From positions 1 to 41,535 of the forward strand of contig CANFST010000023.1 of assembly GCA_947449695.1 (NCBI GenBank): 41,535 nucleotides of DNA. Reading direction: 5' to 3'. Made by a program: the position numbers and the translations under genes. This DNA comes from Chitinophagales bacterium. Its GTDB lineage: Bacteria; Bacteroidota; Bacteroidia; Chitinophagales; CAIODY01. The notes below the pieces were generated by a model, which saw only the letters and a program-made list of their open reading frames with translations, did not search any database and was not told the DNA's origin. Positions 6,434-40,910 of this stretch are shown here, piece after piece. Position 1 is the stretch's first letter; every line of letters begins with the position of its first letter.

Positions 6434-8602
6434 TTACTCGTCTTCGTCCTCAGCTGATTTTTTTAGTTTATTACTAGCTGATGGCTTTGCTTTAGAGGTT
6501 GATTCATTTTTAGATTTCGTTTTTGGGGCATCGTCCTCATCATCTCCATCATCATTTGATTTTTTTGATTTTGATGCAGTTGTTTTATTATTTTTCTTTG
6601 ATGCTTTAGCATCCTCATCATCGCTATCTTCATCATCGTCTGATTTTTTTGCAGCCTTTACTTTATCACTCGAAGATTTGGAAGTAGATGCTTTTTTCGC
6701 TTTTGCTTTTGGGGCATCGTCCTTATCATCGTCTGATTTTTTTGATTTTGATGCAGTTGTTTTATTATTTTTCTTTGATGCTTTAATATCCTCATCAGCA
6801 CTATCTTCATCATCGCCTGATTTTTTTGCAACCTTCGCAGATGAATTGCCAGAAGATTTTCTAGCATTATTAACCGATTTTTTTACAGGTGATTTTTTTG
6901 AGGTATTATCATCTGATTTTTTTGAATCTGAATCATCGTCTTCATCATCATTTGATTTTGACACTTTAGCAGTTTTTGCTGATTTTGCAGATGAATTAGT
7001 TGATCTTTTTGAAGTATTATCATCATCTTCTTCGTCGTCAGATTTTGATTTTTTAACAACAGATGATTTTGAACCAGTGCTCTTTTCTGAAGTTTTTTTC
7101 TTGTCATTTTCATCTTCTCCATTATCCTCTTTGGATTTAGAAGAAGTTGTTTTATTAGAGCTTACTTTCGATTTCTTAGGTGCCTCTTCTTCATCATCAC
7201 TATCTAACGTTTTTTTAGATTTTGAAACAGATGACTTACCTGAAGATTTTTTAGAAGATTTTGTGTCTGCATTATCATCTTCATCATCATCTGATGATTT
7301 ATTAGATTTCACTTTCTTGTCAGATGATTTGCTGTCAGAATTTTCATCCGAAGACGATTTAGAAGCATTATTTGTAGAACGTTTTGCATAATTAACTGAC
7401 TTTTTAACATTAGGATTTTTACTTTCTTTTGATGAATTTGCTTTGTCATCACCTTCCTCATCAGCATCTTTCTTTTTTGTTGATTTTTTTGAAGAAACAC
7501 TATCATCATCCTCGTCATCAGAGCTAACTTTTTTAGATTTTGCCTTAGCAGATGGTGCGCTATCATCAGATTCATCCACATCTCTTGATTTTGATGTGGA
7601 AGATTTCGTAGCTGATTTCGATGGCTTTGAAGGTGTATCATCTTCATCATCATCTGTTGATTTTGCTTTAGATTTTTTTGGAGGTGCATCATCGCCATCT
7701 TCATCTTCATTTACATGAGTAGATTTCGATTTAGTGGATTTTGCTGGCGCTGCATCTTCATCATCATCCGATGATTTTGCTTTAGATTTTTTTGGAGGTG
7801 CATCATCGCTATCTTCATCTTCATTTACATGAGCAGATTTCGATTTAGTAGATTTTGCTGGCACTGCATCTTCATCATCATCCGATGATTTTGCTTTAGA
7901 TTTTTTTGGAGTTACATCATCGCTATCTTCATCTTCATTTACATGAGTAGATTTCGATTTAGTGGATTTTGCTGGCGCTGCATCTTCATCATCATCCGAT
8001 GATTTTACTTTAGATTTTTTTGGAGTTGCATCATCGCTATCTTCGTCATCATTTGAATGCGCAGATTTTGATTTTGTCGATTTTGCCGGTGCTACATCCT
8101 CATCAGTATTTTCGTCGTTCCCTGATTTCTTTGGGGTATTATTTTTTTCAGGGTTTGGCAAACCAGCATTTTCTGCATCGTAATCACGTTCATTTGCTCG
8201 GTCCTGTGATTTTTTAGTAGCTTCAGGATTTGGATAATTTAAAGGAGTATCTTTAAAAGGCGCAGGTTGCAAATCTGGATTTTCAGATGTAGAGGAGGTT
8301 GTTTTACTATTTTGAGGATTAGTCGATTTTGCAGTACCAGCTTGTGGTTGCATCATATCATCATTCAATACATCATCATCTTTAGAATGTGTTTTGGTAT
8401 CTGTTTTTTTTGAATCTTTTTCTGATTTTTTAGCTCGAGCAGATGCACTGCTCATTCCATCGCTATGCTTAGAAGGCATCATGGTTTGAAAACCGCCAGG
8501 TTGTGGGGCGTCGCCAACATGCTTTGTAGTGCTGCATGCACTTATCAAAAACATAATTGAACCAAAGATGATGCTATAAAAATACTTCAACTGATTTTTC
8601 AT
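6434..8602 (-). CDS. Highly repetitive Lys/Asp/Ser-rich lipoprotein of unknown function
   Basis: A 722-residue protein that begins with a lipoprotein signal (lipobox LISAC, Cys23). Apart from about 140 residues of Pro/Asn/Thr-rich sequence at the N-terminus, it is low-complexity: blocks of Asp/Glu (SDDDED) alternate with Lys/Ser blocks (TKSKS, PKKSKAKS), making a polyampholyte that is almost certainly disordered. Residues of roughly 190-330 are a 38-residue repeat encoded by near-identical 114-bp DNA repeats; a second pair of longer repeats (ASKKNNKTTASKSKK) lies near the C-terminus. No catalytic domain is visible. The frame is real because it has a proper signal peptide, no interrupting stop and a terminator behind it. 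Its anchoring suggests a flexible periplasmic or surface brush; that is inference. The copy number of repeats may vary between strains. Confidence 0.8.
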   Translation of the reverse strand: MKNQLKYFYSIIFGSIMFLISACSTTKHVGDAPQPGGFQTMMPSKHSDGMSSASARAKKSEKDSKKTDTKTHSKDDDVLNDDMMQPQAGTAKSTNPQNSKTTSSTSENPDLQPAPFKDTPLNYPNPEATKKSQDRANERDYDAENAGLPNPEKNNTPKKSGNDENTDEDVAPAKSTKSKSAHSNDDEDSDDATPKKSKVKSSDDDEDAAPAKSTKSKSTHVNEDEDSDDVTPKKSKAKSSDDDEDAVPAKSTKSKSAHVNEDEDSDDAPPKKSKAKSSDDDEDAAPAKSTKSKSTHVNEDEDGDDAPPKKSKAKSTDDDEDDTPSKPSKSATKSSTSKSRDVDESDDSAPSAKAKSKKVSSDDEDDDSVSSKKSTKKKDADEEGDDKANSSKESKNPNVKKSVNYAKRSTNNASKSSSDENSDSKSSDKKVKSNKSSDDDEDDNADTKSSKKSSGKSSVSKSKKTLDSDDEEEAPKKSKVSSNKTTSSKSKEDNGEDENDKKKTSEKSTGSKSSVVKKSKSDDEEDDDNTSKRSTNSSAKSAKTAKVSKSNDDEDDDSDSKKSDDNTSKKSPVKKSVNNARKSSGNSSAKVAKKSGDDEDSADEDIKASKKNNKTTASKSKKSDDDKDDAPKAKAKKASTSKSSSDKVKAAKKSDDDEDSDDEDAKASKKNNKTTASKSKKSNDDGDDEDDAPKTKSKNESTSKAKPSASNKLKKSAEDEDE
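6520..6835 (-). repeat. Imperfect long direct repeat near the 3' end of the Lys-rich gene
   Basis: Two related segments encode ASKKNNKTTASKSKK followed by an acidic block and a Lys-rich tail. On the plus strand their shared core runs from the block around 6555-6610 and again around 6738-6788. Spacing is about 180 bp. They differ by point changes and by short codon insertions in the acidic run. Confidence 0.6.
7687..8142 (-). repeat. 114-bp tandem repeats (38 residues) inside the Lys-rich lipoprotein gene
   Basis: The same plus-strand sequence (catcatcgctatcttcatc) starts at 7687, 7801, 7915 and 8029, a strict 114-bp period. The first three copies differ at only about 5-7 bases each; the fourth, nearest the gene's 5' end, is more diverged, and a degenerate half copy precedes 7687. 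The unit keeps the frame (38 codons). The near identity at DNA level indicates recent expansion by slippage or unequal recombination. Confidence 0.9.
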
Positions 8603-22191: not shown

Positions 22192-23709
22192 TTATTCCTT
22201 CACCACTTTGCTGCGGTAAATGTTGGTAGCCGTTTGCACTTCAACAAAATAAATGCCTGCTGATTGGTTGGATAAATCAATAGAGAATTGTTTTCCGTTT
22301 TGGTTTTGTTTTTCAACAATCATTTGACCAGTTAGATTAAAAACCTTGATGGCAGCATTATTCCAATCATTTGAAAAATTGATGGTGAATGATGAATGGG
22401 TTGGGTTTGGGAAGATATTTAAACCATCATTTTCTGTGCTCAAATTTTCAATACCAACATTGCAATTCAACGCCCCTAACTTATAATTAGGCATGTTGGG
22501 TAAGCCGCCATCACTAAAATGTATAGTAGTTCCATTATAACTACCTACCCTTATTTGCTTTTGAACAAAATTGCAAGCCATGCCAAACGAATCAGGGTTG
22601 TTGATTACATGCAATACATTTGTGCTGCCATAAGTGCTTACATATATTTTGCCATCAGGGGCATTTCGCATTTGCCAAAAATATGTATTAGCTAGTAAAT
22701 GACTTCCATCCCAATTTCCTACATTTATTTTAGAAGAATAAGGATTTGAATTTAGTAAGTCATACTGATACATTTTGAAGCCAGTAGTTGCATATACAAA
22801 TCTGTTATTAGGCGATAGAATTACTGATAAGGCTGGAAAAGTATCTAAAGCATCCTGTGATGGAACTTTTTGATAATTACTTAAAACACCCGTGCATCTA
22901 TCAAAATCATAAATATCCGTTTCGCCAATATGTACATTACTAAGACTATTAAAAATGTAAATTAATTTGCTTCCATCAATTGAAACATTACTCACTCCAT
23001 GATAAATATTATTATCGTAATAAATATTACCTATACTTTGAGTGATTGGCTGATGAATACCTACACTATCAATAAGTATTTTATAAAAAACATTGCTTTG
23101 ATATCTTCGGGCAATCAACCACCAATCTTTTCCATTACCATGACGGATGACAAAAATATTGCATGAATTTAATGAGTCGCAACACAAAATAGTGCTATCT
23201 CTAATTGTAACATCACCCAACCCACCGTTTAAACGTCTGTCCACAAAAACGCATCTAATTTTGCTCGGTAAATAATCTCCACTAGAGTTATATTCTAAAT
23301 CATTATAAAAAAAATAAAACATATTTGAATCCTTAACAAAAGGTAAAATAATTCCACCGTTAACTAAAGGAGTATATCCACCACCAGCTATATATTGGTT
23401 CATATATTTACTACTATCAAAATTATTTCCATGTGGCATGATATGATAAGTTTTATCAAAAATTCTATACCCATTTGCATAAAATAATAAATGACCATTT
23501 TTATCATTAATCATGGCGTTACATTGATTCAAGAAATATGGGTTTGTAGTTGATGAATCAACTGTTGGTGGGTTAGTGTTAAAGTCAATCCCACAATTTC
23601 TTCCTATTACCCAATAATTGTTGCTTTGTGAATAAACCTCACCCCCAACCCCTCTCCAATAGAGAGGGGAGAAATACAAAATGATAATTGCGATAATTAT
23701 TTTTTTCAT
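22192..23709 (-). CDS. Secreted T9SS type A cargo protein, beta-propeller-like
   Basis: A 505-residue secreted protein. Residues about 30-420 carry repeated strand motifs such as NDKNGHLLFYANGYRIFD, LSPNNRFVYATTG and APDGKIYVSTYGS, typical of Bacteroidota beta-propeller surface proteins. The last 80 residues (from NIFPNPTHSSFTINF to SKVVKE) are a type A T9SS sorting domain, so it is exported by the gliding/T9SS machinery and anchored or released. The signal peptide is abnormal: after MKKIIIAIIILYFS comes PLYWRGVGGEV, which is the translation of an interspersed repeat, before YSQSN. The frame is kept. A bidirectional terminator lies downstream. Ligand unknown. Confidence 0.85.
   Translation of the reverse strand: MKKIIIAIIILYFSPLYWRGVGGEVYSQSNNYWVIGRNCGIDFNTNPPTVDSSTTNPYFLNQCNAMINDKNGHLLFYANGYRIFDKTYHIMPHGNNFDSSKYMNQYIAGGGYTPLVNGGIILPFVKDSNMFYFFYNDLEYNSSGDYLPSKIRCVFVDRRLNGGLGDVTIRDSTILCCDSLNSCNIFVIRHGNGKDWWLIARRYQSNVFYKILIDSVGIHQPITQSIGNIYYDNNIYHGVSNVSIDGSKLIYIFNSLSNVHIGETDIYDFDRCTGVLSNYQKVPSQDALDTFPALSVILSPNNRFVYATTGFKMYQYDLLNSNPYSSKINVGNWDGSHLLANTYFWQMRNAPDGKIYVSTYGSTNVLHVINNPDSFGMACNFVQKQIRVGSYNGTTIHFSDGGLPNMPNYKLGALNCNVGIENLSTENDGLNIFPNPTHSSFTINFSNDWNNAAIKVFNLTGQMIVEKQNQNGKQFSIDLSNQSAGIYFVEVQTATNIYRSKVVKE
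23638..23671. repeat. Palindromic interspersed repeat read as part of a signal peptide
   Basis: cctcacccccaacccctctc is followed by caata and gagagggg: an 8-bp stem (23649-23656 with 23662-23669). Strings of this G-rich kind recur in Bacteroidota genomes. It lies inside the T9SS protein gene and encodes WRGVGGE in the minus frame. Confidence 0.65.
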
Positions 23710-24142
23710 TTTTTTGGATAATAATTTTGTTGTTTAATGATTGGGAATGGATTGCATTCGCAGGTAGTGGTTAATGACGATGTTATTGTAATTTTTCCGT
23801 CAGTCTTGATGTTCTGTCGAGTTTCCAAACTCGACAAATTTAATTGACGATTTCAAATCGTCTATTAACCAATGCCGAATTGCACACGAGCGAAGCGAAC
23901 TGATGTACACAAAATAAATAATTAAAATCTAGCTGGCGCAAGTCTGAAGCAAAGCCGGTTAGCGTTTGCCGACTTGTGCCTTTACACTTTGGCACAAGTT
24001 CGCTCTACACAAATCTACGCTGAAACTTGCTCCAGCATCTGCGCTATCTCTAAGGTCGCAATTTTCGACCTTAAAGGTTTCGGTTGACGAAGGAAGCATC
24101 TGTATTTCAATTTTCAAATTTTCTCATCTTCAAATTCTCAAA
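23710..24142. repeat. 433-bp gene-free region packed with palindromes
   Basis: No supported gene lies here. It holds four hairpins: 23815-23836 (gtcgagttt/aaactcgac, 10-bp arms), 23846-23862 (gacgattt/aaatcgtc), 23972-23999 (acttgtgcc/ggcacaagt) and 24051-24073 (taaggtcg/cgacctta), and then an AATTTGA-type repeat up to the stop of the DUF885 gene. The stretch 23930-24090 looks richer in G+C than its surroundings. A plus-strand frame (23966-24379) opens here but is only a chance reading through the hairpins and the antisense of the next gene. The elements look like mobile or relic interspersed repeats. Confidence 0.7.
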
Positions 24143-37100: not shown

Positions 37101-40100
37101 ATGAAAACGATAAAATTATTTATCAGCATAGCATGTCTGGTAATAGTTGCAAAAACAAATCAGGCACAAAATGTAGGTATTGGTACTAACACACCAAGCG
37201 CTTCCGCAAAGCTCGAATTGAGTGACCCTAACAGAGGTTTTTTGCCACCAAGAGTTGCATTAACTGCAACTTCAAATATTTCTTCACCTGTAGCTTCTCC
37301 GGCTGCTGGTTTGATGGTTTATAATACAGCAACTGCAGGAAGCGGTTCCACTGCTGTAACACCAGGTTATTATTATTGTGATGGGACACAATGGGTGCGT
37401 ATGATTGCACCTGCCACAACTGCTACCACAAATACCTTATCTACTTCAGGCAATGTTATTACCTCAACAGTAAATGGCACAGTTGCAACAGCAAATTCTG
37501 TAAATTCGAATTCAACTTCCTTAAGCGGTACTAATTTAACAACAACGGTAAATGGTGTGGCAGCAACAGCATTAGATTTAACACCAGCTATCACTTCTAC
37601 GGCCTGGAGTTTAACGGGGAATAGCGGAACAACTGCTGGTACGAATTTTATCGGCACAACTGATAATATTGATTTCAGAATAAAAAGAAACAATGTGAAT
37701 GCTGGTTTAATAGGGTTAACCAATACAGCAATTGGTATAAACGCAGGAAATATTTCAAGCATCAGCGGCTCTAGTAATGCAGCTTTCGGTAATGCTGCTT
37801 TAAATTCAATCACAACTGGTAATTCGAATGTTGCAATTGGTGTAAAATCATTATATAGCTTAACCACTACCTCAAACGCAGTAGCAGTAGGCGATTCAAC
37901 ATTGTACAACAATTCAACTGGCAATCAAAATACAGCAATTGGTTCAAAAACTTTATACACGAATACATCAGGAAGTTACAATACGGGTGTTGGTTCGAAA
38001 AGTTTATATGCTAATACATCAGGAACTGGAAATACAGCAATGGGTGTAAATGCTTTATATACTAATGGTTCTGGTGGTTCTAATACTTCTATCGGTTATA
38101 ATTCGATGTATTACAACACGACAGGTGGAAAGAATACTGCATTAGGTTATTATTCATTATTTAAAAATACTTCGAGCAGCAATAATACAACAATAGGCTA
38201 TCAAGCCATGTATAATTCAACAACAGGGTATTCCAACGTTGCTATTGGTACGAATGCTTTTTACAACAACACAACCGGTGCAAATATGGTTGCAGTGGGC
38301 GATAGTGCATTGTATAACCAAACAAGCGGTTGTTCTGCAAATACTGCCATTGGTAGTAAATCAATATTCTCCAATACTTCTGGAAATTATAACTCTGGCT
38401 TAGGTTTTAAATCTCTTTATACCAATACTTCTGGTTCTCAAAATACTGCATTGGGTTATATGTCGGGCTATTCCAACACCACAGGCGCAGGTGGTACAGC
38501 AACTGGCTACAATGCTTTATATTCTAATACGACAGGAGGTTATAATTCAGCATTTGGTAATCAGGCTATGCAAAGCAATACAACTGGTTCACAAAATGTG
38601 GGCATTGGCACATGGGCGTTATCATCCAACACAACTGGCGATAACAATACTGCTGTTGGTGGTTCAGCGTTAGGAAACAATACAACCGGAACACAAAATG
38701 TGGCTATTGGGCAATCAGCATTATCATCCAACACCACAGCAAGTAATAACGTAGCCATTGGACAGTCTGCATTAGGCAGTAATACAACTGGTTCACAAAA
38801 TGCAGCCATAGGTCAATCTGCATTAGGTAGCAACACAACTGGTAGCAATAACATGGCGATGGGGCAATCTGCATTGGGTTTAAACACTACGGGTTCAAGC
38901 AATGTGGCTATTGGTCAGTCTGCATTAGCTGCAAATACCACAGGCGCAAGCAACGTAACGGTTGGTGGACAATCACAACAAAAAACTACAACAGGCAGTT
39001 ACAATACCAATCTAGGTGGCTTAGGCTTAGGTAATAATACTACAGGCAGTAATAATACATCAATGGGTTACCAAGCACTTTATAACGCCACAACCGGGAG
39101 CAATAAAACTGCAATGGGTTATCAAGCAGGTATGAGCGATACTTTAGGTTCTAACAATACATTTATTGGTTATGGTGCTGATGCATTAAGAACAAATTAT
39201 TCTAACGCCACAGCCATTGGTTATAATGCAAAGGTAGGTGCAAGCAATAGTATGGTGTTGGGTGGAACTGGCGCAAGCGCTGTGAATGTGGGGATTGGAA
39301 CAACTACACCAAGTTATTTACTGCATGTTTCAGGCACTGGTGGCAGTGTACAAGGTAAAGTCGTAAGTACAGCAACAACCGACCGAACTATTTTGAGTGC
39401 TTTCAACACAGGTACTAATGGTGGCATGTTAGATATGAGAGCTTATGGCTCAAGTTATTCAGAAACCAGATTTGGTAATAGCATGTCAGGTGCTGCGGCA
39501 TTAATATCTTTAGCTAATGCGCCACTTTATGTTGGTTCATTTACCAATTACGATATGGTATTAGGAACTAACGATGCCGAAAGAATGCGCATTACTGCGG
39601 CTGGCAATGTTGGTATTGGTCAATCATCACCAGGTTCGGCATTAGATGTAAAAGGTACCTTACGTTTATCAGGCTCAACATCAGGTTATGTTGGCTTGAA
39701 GGGTGCAGCAGCAGCAGGTTCTACTACTTATACTTTGCCAAGTGCTGATGGAACTGCCGGGCAAGTATTAAAAACGGATGGTGCTGGCAATTTAAGTTGG
39801 GTAACTGCTGGCGGTGGAAGTGGATGGGGTTTGACAGGTAATAGCGGTACTACAGCCGGAACCAACTTCGTTGGAACTACTGATGCACAAGATTTAACTT
39901 TTAAAAGAAACAGTGTAACAGCTGGAAACATTGGTGCTACAAGCACTTCACTGGGTGTTTCTTCTTCAGCAACTGGAACAAATTCCTTAGCATTAGGCTA
40001 TAGCGCTTCATCAACGATGGCAAATAGTTTGGCTATTGGCAATAATTCACAAGTACAACCAGCTGCAGGAAGTACAGATGATATAGCTATCGGACCATCA

Positions 40101-40910
40101 GCCAATGTAACTGGTGGCAGCGCTTATAATTATTCAACCGCCATCGGTTCTTCGGCGCAAGTACAAAATTCAAACGGTTTAGCAATTGGCAGAAGTGCCA
40201 ATGTGAATTCTCAATATGGAATGGCCATCGGCGATGCAGCGCAAGCCCAAGCTACTTACGCCGTTTCGATTGGAACAAGTGCATACACAAATGGCAGCTA
40301 TTCGGTTTCAATTGGTGGGTCATCACAAGCACAAGGAGCTTATGCTATTTCAATCGGAAAAAGTTCTTACACCAGTGCACAAGATGCTATTGCAATTGGC
40401 GATGGTGCGCAAGCGCAAGGCACAAACAATATTGCTATCGGAACAAGTTTGTATAATGGTAATGCAAACACAGTAGCCATCGGTAATTCAAGTGTCACTT
40501 CTTTAAATTTTAGTGGCGCATCTAACACATCTAATGCTTTAACAATTGGTACTTCTAATTCAAATGGTAATGGTGCTTATTTAACGAAAGGTGGTACCTG
40601 GACAAACGCTTCTGACATAAATTTAAAAGATAATTTTTCAAAAGTAGATGGTAAAGATGTGTTGAAAAAAATAGCTGAATTAGATATTACCAAATGGCGT
40701 TATAAAGGCACTGATGAATATCACATTGGACCTATGGCGCAAGATTTTTACAAAGAATTTCAATTAGGAACCGACGATAAACACATCAGTACCATTGACC
40801 CAAGCGGTGTTTCATTAGCTGCCATCAAAGCATTGAATGAAAAAGTAGAATTGCAACAGCAAGAGATAGATATGCTGATGAAAAAAATTGAAGAGTTAGA
40901 GAAAAAATAA
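37101..40910 (+). CDS. Large fibre protein with two kinds of beta-roll repeat and a C-terminal S74 chaperone domain
   Basis: A 1269-residue secreted protein. A signal peptide (about 1-22, ending NQAQ) precedes an N-terminal VGIGTNTPSASAKLEL block common in Bacteroidota tail-fibre-like proteins. Residues 226-702 are 28 copies of a 17-residue repeat (NxAIGxxALxxNTTGSx). Residues 961-1130 carry YadA-like head repeats, with six regular 14-residue units at 1040-1123 (AIGxxAxAxGxY). Each repeat block follows a near-identical linker (LTGNSGTTAGTNF, residues about 171 and 911). The C-terminus has the peptidase S74/endosialidase-type chaperone: Ser1171-Asp1172 in SDINLKDN, the expected self-cleavage site, then IGPMAQDF and a coiled coil. 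It should form a trimeric surface fibre. No phage genes surround it. Binding target unknown. Confidence 0.88.
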   Translation: MKTIKLFISIACLVIVAKTNQAQNVGIGTNTPSASAKLELSDPNRGFLPPRVALTATSNISSPVASPAAGLMVYNTATAGSGSTAVTPGYYYCDGTQWVRMIAPATTATTNTLSTSGNVITSTVNGTVATANSVNSNSTSLSGTNLTTTVNGVAATALDLTPAITSTAWSLTGNSGTTAGTNFIGTTDNIDFRIKRNNVNAGLIGLTNTAIGINAGNISSISGSSNAAFGNAALNSITTGNSNVAIGVKSLYSLTTTSNAVAVGDSTLYNNSTGNQNTAIGSKTLYTNTSGSYNTGVGSKSLYANTSGTGNTAMGVNALYTNGSGGSNTSIGYNSMYYNTTGGKNTALGYYSLFKNTSSSNNTTIGYQAMYNSTTGYSNVAIGTNAFYNNTTGANMVAVGDSALYNQTSGCSANTAIGSKSIFSNTSGNYNSGLGFKSLYTNTSGSQNTALGYMSGYSNTTGAGGTATGYNALYSNTTGGYNSAFGNQAMQSNTTGSQNVGIGTWALSSNTTGDNNTAVGGSALGNNTTGTQNVAIGQSALSSNTTASNNVAIGQSALGSNTTGSQNAAIGQSALGSNTTGSNNMAMGQSALGLNTTGSSNVAIGQSALAANTTGASNVTVGGQSQQKTTTGSYNTNLGGLGLGNNTTGSNNTSMGYQALYNATTGSNKTAMGYQAGMSDTLGSNNTFIGYGADALRTNYSNATAIGYNAKVGASNSMVLGGTGASAVNVGIGTTTPSYLLHVSGTGGSVQGKVVSTATTDRTILSAFNTGTNGGMLDMRAYGSSYSETRFGNSMSGAAALISLANAPLYVGSFTNYDMVLGTNDAERMRITAAGNVGIGQSSPGSALDVKGTLRLSGSTSGYVGLKGAAAAGSTTYTLPSADGTAGQVLKTDGAGNLSWVTAGGGSGWGLTGNSGTTAGTNFVGTTDAQDLTFKRNSVTAGNIGATSTSLGVSSSATGTNSLALGYSASSTMANSLAIGNNSQVQPAAGSTDDIAIGPSANVTGGSAYNYSTAIGSSAQVQNSNGLAIGRSANVNSQYGMAIGDAAQAQATYAVSIGTSAYTNGSYSVSIGGSSQAQGAYAISIGKSSYTSAQDAIAIGDGAQAQGTNNIAIGTSLYNGNANTVAIGNSSVTSLNFSGASNTSNALTIGTSNSNGNGAYLTKGGTWTNASDINLKDNFSKVDGKDVLKKIAELDITKWRYKGTDEYHIGPMAQDFYKEFQLGTDDKHISTIDPSGVSLAAIKALNEKVELQQQEIDMLMKKIEELEKK
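37776..39206 (+). repeat. 28 tandem 17-residue (51-bp) repeats in the fibre gene
   Basis: Repeats run from residue 226 to 702, all 17 residues except one of 18 (starting MVAVG). The consensus is N-x-A-I-G-x-x-A-L-x-x-N-T-T-G-S-x. DNA copies differ mainly at third codon positions, even where the protein copies are nearly the same, for example copies 19-23 around 38695-38950. Confidence 0.9.
40218..40469 (+). repeat. Six YadA-like 14-residue head repeats in the fibre gene
   Basis: Units start at GMAIG, AVSIG, SVSIG, AISIG, AIAIG and NIAIG, each exactly 14 residues. Less regular relatives precede them from 39981 and one partial unit follows. This is the spacing of left-handed beta-roll repeats in YadA-type adhesin heads. 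Confidence 0.85.

Follow-up and report, generated by a model that had tools for sequence, protein, structure and literature searches.

A palindromic repeat in the signal peptide of a T9SS cargo gene

The window, by which we mean the whole 41,535-nt stretch of DNA analysed here, carries on its minus strand a gene for a T9SS cargo protein of 505 aa (22192..23709). The C-terminus of this protein is a sorting domain (aa 432-502; PF18962, E = 5.9e-16), which also matched TIGR04183. The ORF begins MKKIIIAIIILYFSPLYWRGVGGEVYSQSNNYW, and the N-terminus of the protein reads MKKIIIAIIILYF-SPLYWRGVGGE-VYSQSNNYW. The preliminary description had read this signal peptide as a hydrophobic stretch followed by inserted residues and YSQSN in a surviving protein frame, and both parts of that reading were borne out, the 505-aa frame being intact. 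The in-frame codons for SPLYWRGVGGE (residues 14-24) occupy 23638..23670 on the minus strand, as seen from the sequence, an alignment with nine homologues and a nucleotide alignment. They separate the hydrophobic core from the cleavage region around the conserved VYSQ.

A search of 40 relatives detected homologues of the T9SS protein in 22, and the window's own genome (G000) holds several paralogues. The signal peptides of the homologues pass from a hydrophobic core to a conserved xxS/A↓Q site (arrow, cleavage) without the inserted residues. The orthologue comparison that had been proposed gave the expected result: these residues are missing from all nine aligned homologues, so that among ten aligned N-termini they are unique to the window protein, which is longer than its nine relatives by a net seven to eight residues. 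Relative to the orthologue in G002, a related genome, the window gene has a net gain of 21 nt, with 11 residues where G002 has LSTK. Since this orthologue is only ~53% identical, the exact bases lost from the window gene are uncertain. The extra residues are in frame, but the event resembles an exchange of a few codons (about four for about 11) more than a clean insertion.

The effect on cleavage was estimated by simple geometry, counting the residues from where the hydrophobic core stops up to the conserved VYS↓Q. The core of the window protein ends 14 residues before VYS↓Q, whereas the distance is 4-8 residues in most homologues, with three outliers at 0, 1, and 11. The insert also supplies two candidate alternative cleavage sites, GVG↓GE and VGG↓EV. 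Given the longer distance and the alternative sites, a shifted cleavage is probably the effect of the insert. Export should persist because the hydrophobic core is untouched; the signal peptide would thus still work, with a shifted cleavage site, and the insert is probably tolerated. Upstream of the gene, positions 23720-23790 translate as the final part of a different gene (YNNIVINHYLRMQSIPNH, then a stop). The same tail precedes paralogues at three other loci (L005, L006, and L018), which suggests that the T9SS gene was copied together with its upstream flank.

Structure, family, and distribution of the repeat

The extra residues had been described as the translation of a stem-loop, and the arms of that stem-loop (23649-23656 and 23662-23669) indeed fall within 23638-23670. 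On the coding strand, the repeat reads CCCCTCTC-TATTG-GAGAGGGG-TTG-GGGGTGAG. All three tracts are given on the minus strand: the pyrimidine arm of the stem, CCCCTCTC, at 23662..23669; the purine arm, GAGAGGGG, at 23649..23656; and GGGGTGAG, at 23638..23645, a predicted third-strand (reverse Hoogsteen) tract. The complete unit of 35 nt spans 23637..23671 on the plus strand, where its C-rich strand is CCTCACCCCCAACCCCTCTCCAATAGAGAGGGGAG; its outer end is CCTCACCC, and its hairpin end faces the gene start. Computed folding of the hairpin as single-stranded DNA gave -8.9 kcal/mol (z = -3.95). In the window, CCCCTCTC occurs only as the two stem arms, with 0.17 occurrences expected by chance. The earlier observation was correct, as the stem-loop is translated at residues 14-24, folds into a good hairpin and has its arm sequence nowhere else in the window.

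The repeat also conforms to the rule published for finding class II intrastrand triplexes, which requires a Y arm, a loop of 1-6 nt, an R arm, a second loop of 1-6 nt and a third strand, with GGC, TAT, or AAT triads and a stem of at least six. It has eight triads, no mismatches, and loops of 5 and 3 nt. This perfect 8-triad site is unique in the 41.5-kb window, and none arose in 40 Markov shuffles. By its sequence, the window stem-loop is a repeat of the BoxC/PIT/"triplex motif" (TM) type. The family is already known, its members having been orphan repeats since the 1990s; BoxC/PIT/TM_ECO repeats have been recorded in more than 260 genomes of many phyla (PMC4666352, Holder et al. 2015). The window repeat shares their layout, in which a Y arm, a loop, and an R arm are followed by a short linker (TT in type A) and a G-rich third strand that ends in TGAGG, and it shares their class II triads. 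It differs in being coding and in frame, whereas in E. coli all copies were described as intergenic, with no mobility genes nearby (PMC4666352); an intergenic position does not define the family in other phyla. Two more small palindromes, GTCGAGTTTCCAAACTCGAC and GACGATTTCAAATCGTC, lie in the intergenic stretch 23800-23900.

The repeat had been called interspersed, with further copies to be sought in the same genome. This search returned no second copy in the 99-contig draft of G000, either at up to three mismatches over 21 nt or with a looser structural pattern. Multiple copies per genome are usual for the family without being part of its definition; G000 has one copy found, and other genomes of the order have several. 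The term thus applies across genomes rather than within the window's genome: within the order, the motif was matched in 45 of 396 genomes and the reversed control pattern was listed in one. The motif was also found in Chloroflexi, Cyanobacteria, Planctomycetes, Proteobacteria, and others. Out of 97 repeat copies, 46% lay in ORFs of at least 150 aa, against 81% of random positions. Coding copies are therefore depleted yet common, and a preference of the copies for coding sequence was rejected. At least 120 DNA stretches with the repeat were seen on viral contigs (L172-L291), and no DUF559 domain was found near the copies at these loci.

In the sister genome G001, the looser structural pattern had three exact matches. 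The first is an in-frame part of a DAO-type oxidoreductase (DE-VPLSFGEGLGVR-LQT). Its orthologues in G000 (90% identity) and G002 (87%) lack the repeat, and comparison with them shows 15 nt replaced by 36 nt, so that this clean empty site records a frame-preserving replacement. The second lies in frame within a KDO-transferase-like protein, and the third forms an end of the DUF559 cassette carried by leucyl-tRNA synthetase (LeuRS). All examined copies of this genus are translated in frame. As the preliminary description held, the palindromic repeat of the window has become coding sequence within the signal-peptide region of a protein whose homologues lack it. Rickettsia palindromic elements (RPE) are likewise small palindromic repeats placed in frame in unrelated, often conserved proteins (PMC2229807). 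They measure 105-146 bp (reviewed in PMC2229807) and have another sequence, whereas the window unit is about 35 nt long and belongs to a family whose copies flank a nuclease gene on both sides. Assignment of the window repeat to RPE was rejected on unit length.

DUF559 next to the repeats and inside host genes

DUF559, a PD-(D/E)XK, Vsr-like endonuclease domain, was first met between two repeat copies while host ORFs were being scanned, in LeuRS, a DEXH helicase, HsdM, and a type ISP enzyme. The nearest solved structure was 3HRL, an endonuclease-like protein (E = 1e-16). Among the relatives, a sample biased to the window's order, a class II repeat lay within 250 bp of the domain at 16 of 28 DUF559 loci, versus none of 45 control loci comprising Y1 transposases, the oxidoreductase family, and the T9SS family (Fisher p = 6e-9). 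The other 12 of the 28 had no repeat at the threshold used, with a finder that covers one palindrome type only. DUF559 was present in 19 of 20 repeat-bearing genomes from several phyla, which had been chosen for carrying the repeat; in this set, a repeat lay within 250 bp at 23 of 30 DUF559 loci and on both sides at 11. When the loci were pooled and the repeats binned by distance from the domain in steps of 250 bp, 72 of 86 fell into the first bin. Starting from loci picked by the repeat alone, DUF559 was found at eight of 118, seven times within 130 bp, and at none of 57 controls; the majority of such repeat loci (110/118) thus have no DUF559 nearby. In E. coli, where no mobility genes were reported next to these repeats, the DUF559 gene ycjD adjoins TM_ECO no. 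9 at about 1,351,206, ~200 bp from the ycjD end, so that here the family is tied to DUF559 in that species too. No DUF559 gene was detected in G000, so that the window copy lacks a candidate mover within the same genome. The link between DUF559 and BoxC/triplex repeats was not found in the literature searched, which was mostly open access, and an earlier description is possible. A literature search with the repeat-encoded peptides returned no match.

Inverted repeats bracketing DUF559, the arrangement that defines the proposed element, were found in the LeuRS gene of G001 and at L033, L131, and L168. At all four, CCTCACCC lies outside and the hairpin inside, and the whole measures about 0.5 kb; the window copy corresponds to a solo end. 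The bases just outside CCTCACC match in inverted orientation at both ends of one element (TTGA, AG, and CC) and differ between these four elements. The repeat arms vary among other DUF559 loci (L353, L379, L358, L370, and L417), with CCCCTCTC, TCCCCCTT, CCCCTCCT, and TCCCCTCC observed. As the two ends of one element agree while the arms differ between loci, coevolution of the nuclease and its ends is suggested.

The LeuRS of G001 contains DUF559 followed by TTPSPLERGQGVRS. It is filled, whereas the LeuRS of G000, 96% identical to it, is empty; most other LeuRS have 32-34 residues at the cassette site. DUF559 lies in frame in LeuRS in at least eight genomes (L033, L053, L056, L127, L351, L353, L168, and L428). 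By inspection, the LeuRS cassettes occupy two recurring sites, one of which holds a solo repeat in L042. Further hosts of in-frame cassettes were HsdR, HsdM, Eco57I/ISP and other RM enzymes, helicases, and a MeaB-type protein. One HsdR (L360:1-3309) contains both DUF559 and GIY-YIG in frame together with repeated PPLEGWLKAGVV peptides, which are likely the translation of another palindrome family.

Homing endonucleases of inteins and introns are similar in being small endonucleases that recur at fixed sites in conserved genes. The DUF559 cassette differs in having palindromic ends and in being kept as coding sequence. Pfam scans of the filled host proteins contained no intein (Hint) domain, and an intein was rejected on that ground; a group I or II intron was likewise rejected as the carrier, there being no Rfam intron in the filled loci. 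The pairing of REP/REPIN with RAYT (TnpA-REP) is also comparable, in that a short palindrome is dispersed by, and flanks, one nuclease-type gene. There the nuclease is of the Y1 type, whereas here it is DUF559 (PD-(D/E)XK). A link of the present repeat to RAYT/Y1 transposases was rejected, with a repeat within 1.5 kb at none of 10 Y1_Tnp loci.

Origin of the window copy

We consider it probable that the window stretch is a solo BoxC/PIT/TM palindrome, the lone end of a DUF559 selfish element, which entered the gene as an in-frame replacement in the signal peptide. In that case, a selfish element of only about 0.5 kb that encodes DUF559 would have the palindromes of the family as its terminal inverted repeats, and the full element would sit in frame in host genes, repeatedly LeuRS, without an intein or a known intron. 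We infer that DUF559 acts on the ends in their folded, single-stranded form, recognising and moving them much as RAYT does with REP, although the nuclease is unrelated; the mobility of both repeat and element is read from sequence comparisons. Solo ends could be minimal copies mobilised in trans or leftovers after the middle was lost. Frame-keeping events would be the sole survivors inside genes, which would account for the recurrent peptides. The broader claim, that BoxC/PIT/TM palindromes are the ends of widespread DUF559 selfish elements that insert in frame into essential genes, leuS among them, with no splicing involved and with solo copies as footprints that seed new peptide segments, we regard as plausible and somewhat favoured by the same data.

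If a G/C-rich stem-loop had arisen in the signal peptide by chance, a single copy in G000 would be expected, as found, yet this reading is refuted by the 35-nt match to a family that 45 of the 396 genomes contain, against a single listing for the reversed control, and by the site being the only perfect 8-triad site of the window; its probability is close to nil. The repeat could instead have been co-opted, the added residues being selected for tuning export or cleavage of the T9SS protein. The insert does lie exactly between hydrophobic core and cleavage site, brings new candidate cleavage positions and leaves the 505-aa frame intact, but it is limited to one gene of one genome and absent from the nine aligned homologues, and similar inserts occur in unrelated cytoplasmic proteins. 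Moreover, some T9SS paralogues in G000 are broken, so that selection on this family may be weak, and we hold co-option to be very improbable.

The more serious competitor is an ordinary BoxC/PIT palindrome whose spread is independent of DUF559, with DUF559 genes landing in repeat-rich, unstable places and the window copy arising by illegitimate recombination. The many repeats lacking DUF559 nearby (110/118 loci) agree with it, as do sites that resemble replacements rather than clean insertions, and the published study of the E. coli copies found no mobility genes nearby and linked the repeats to local instability. It accounts poorly for DUF559 being bracketed by both ends, in consistent inverted orientation and within single host genes, including in copy-poor genomes such as G001, and for a LeuRS that is filled in one sister genome and empty in the other. 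We therefore judge it unlikely, though clearly less so than co-option.

If a solo end of a DUF559 element is the true origin, BoxC/PIT repeats gain a mover and a biology, that of a tiny nuclease cassette translated inside essential genes, and DUF559 acquires a testable function. The peptides LTPNPSPKERG, SPLxWRGVGGE, and PLSxGEGxGVR, which recur in many unrelated proteins, would be accounted for, and selfish DNA would have a route for adding residues to proteins, here to a secretion signal.

Two other features of the window are repetitive. An acidic, lysine/serine-rich repeat protein at 6434-8602 contains four units of 114 nt in tandem, which are up to 91% alike, as well as numerous 54-nt copies. 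A large ORF at 37101-40910 (1269 aa) has repeated 51-nt units (NTAIGxxAL-like), and its product is probably an adhesin or fibre-like protein.
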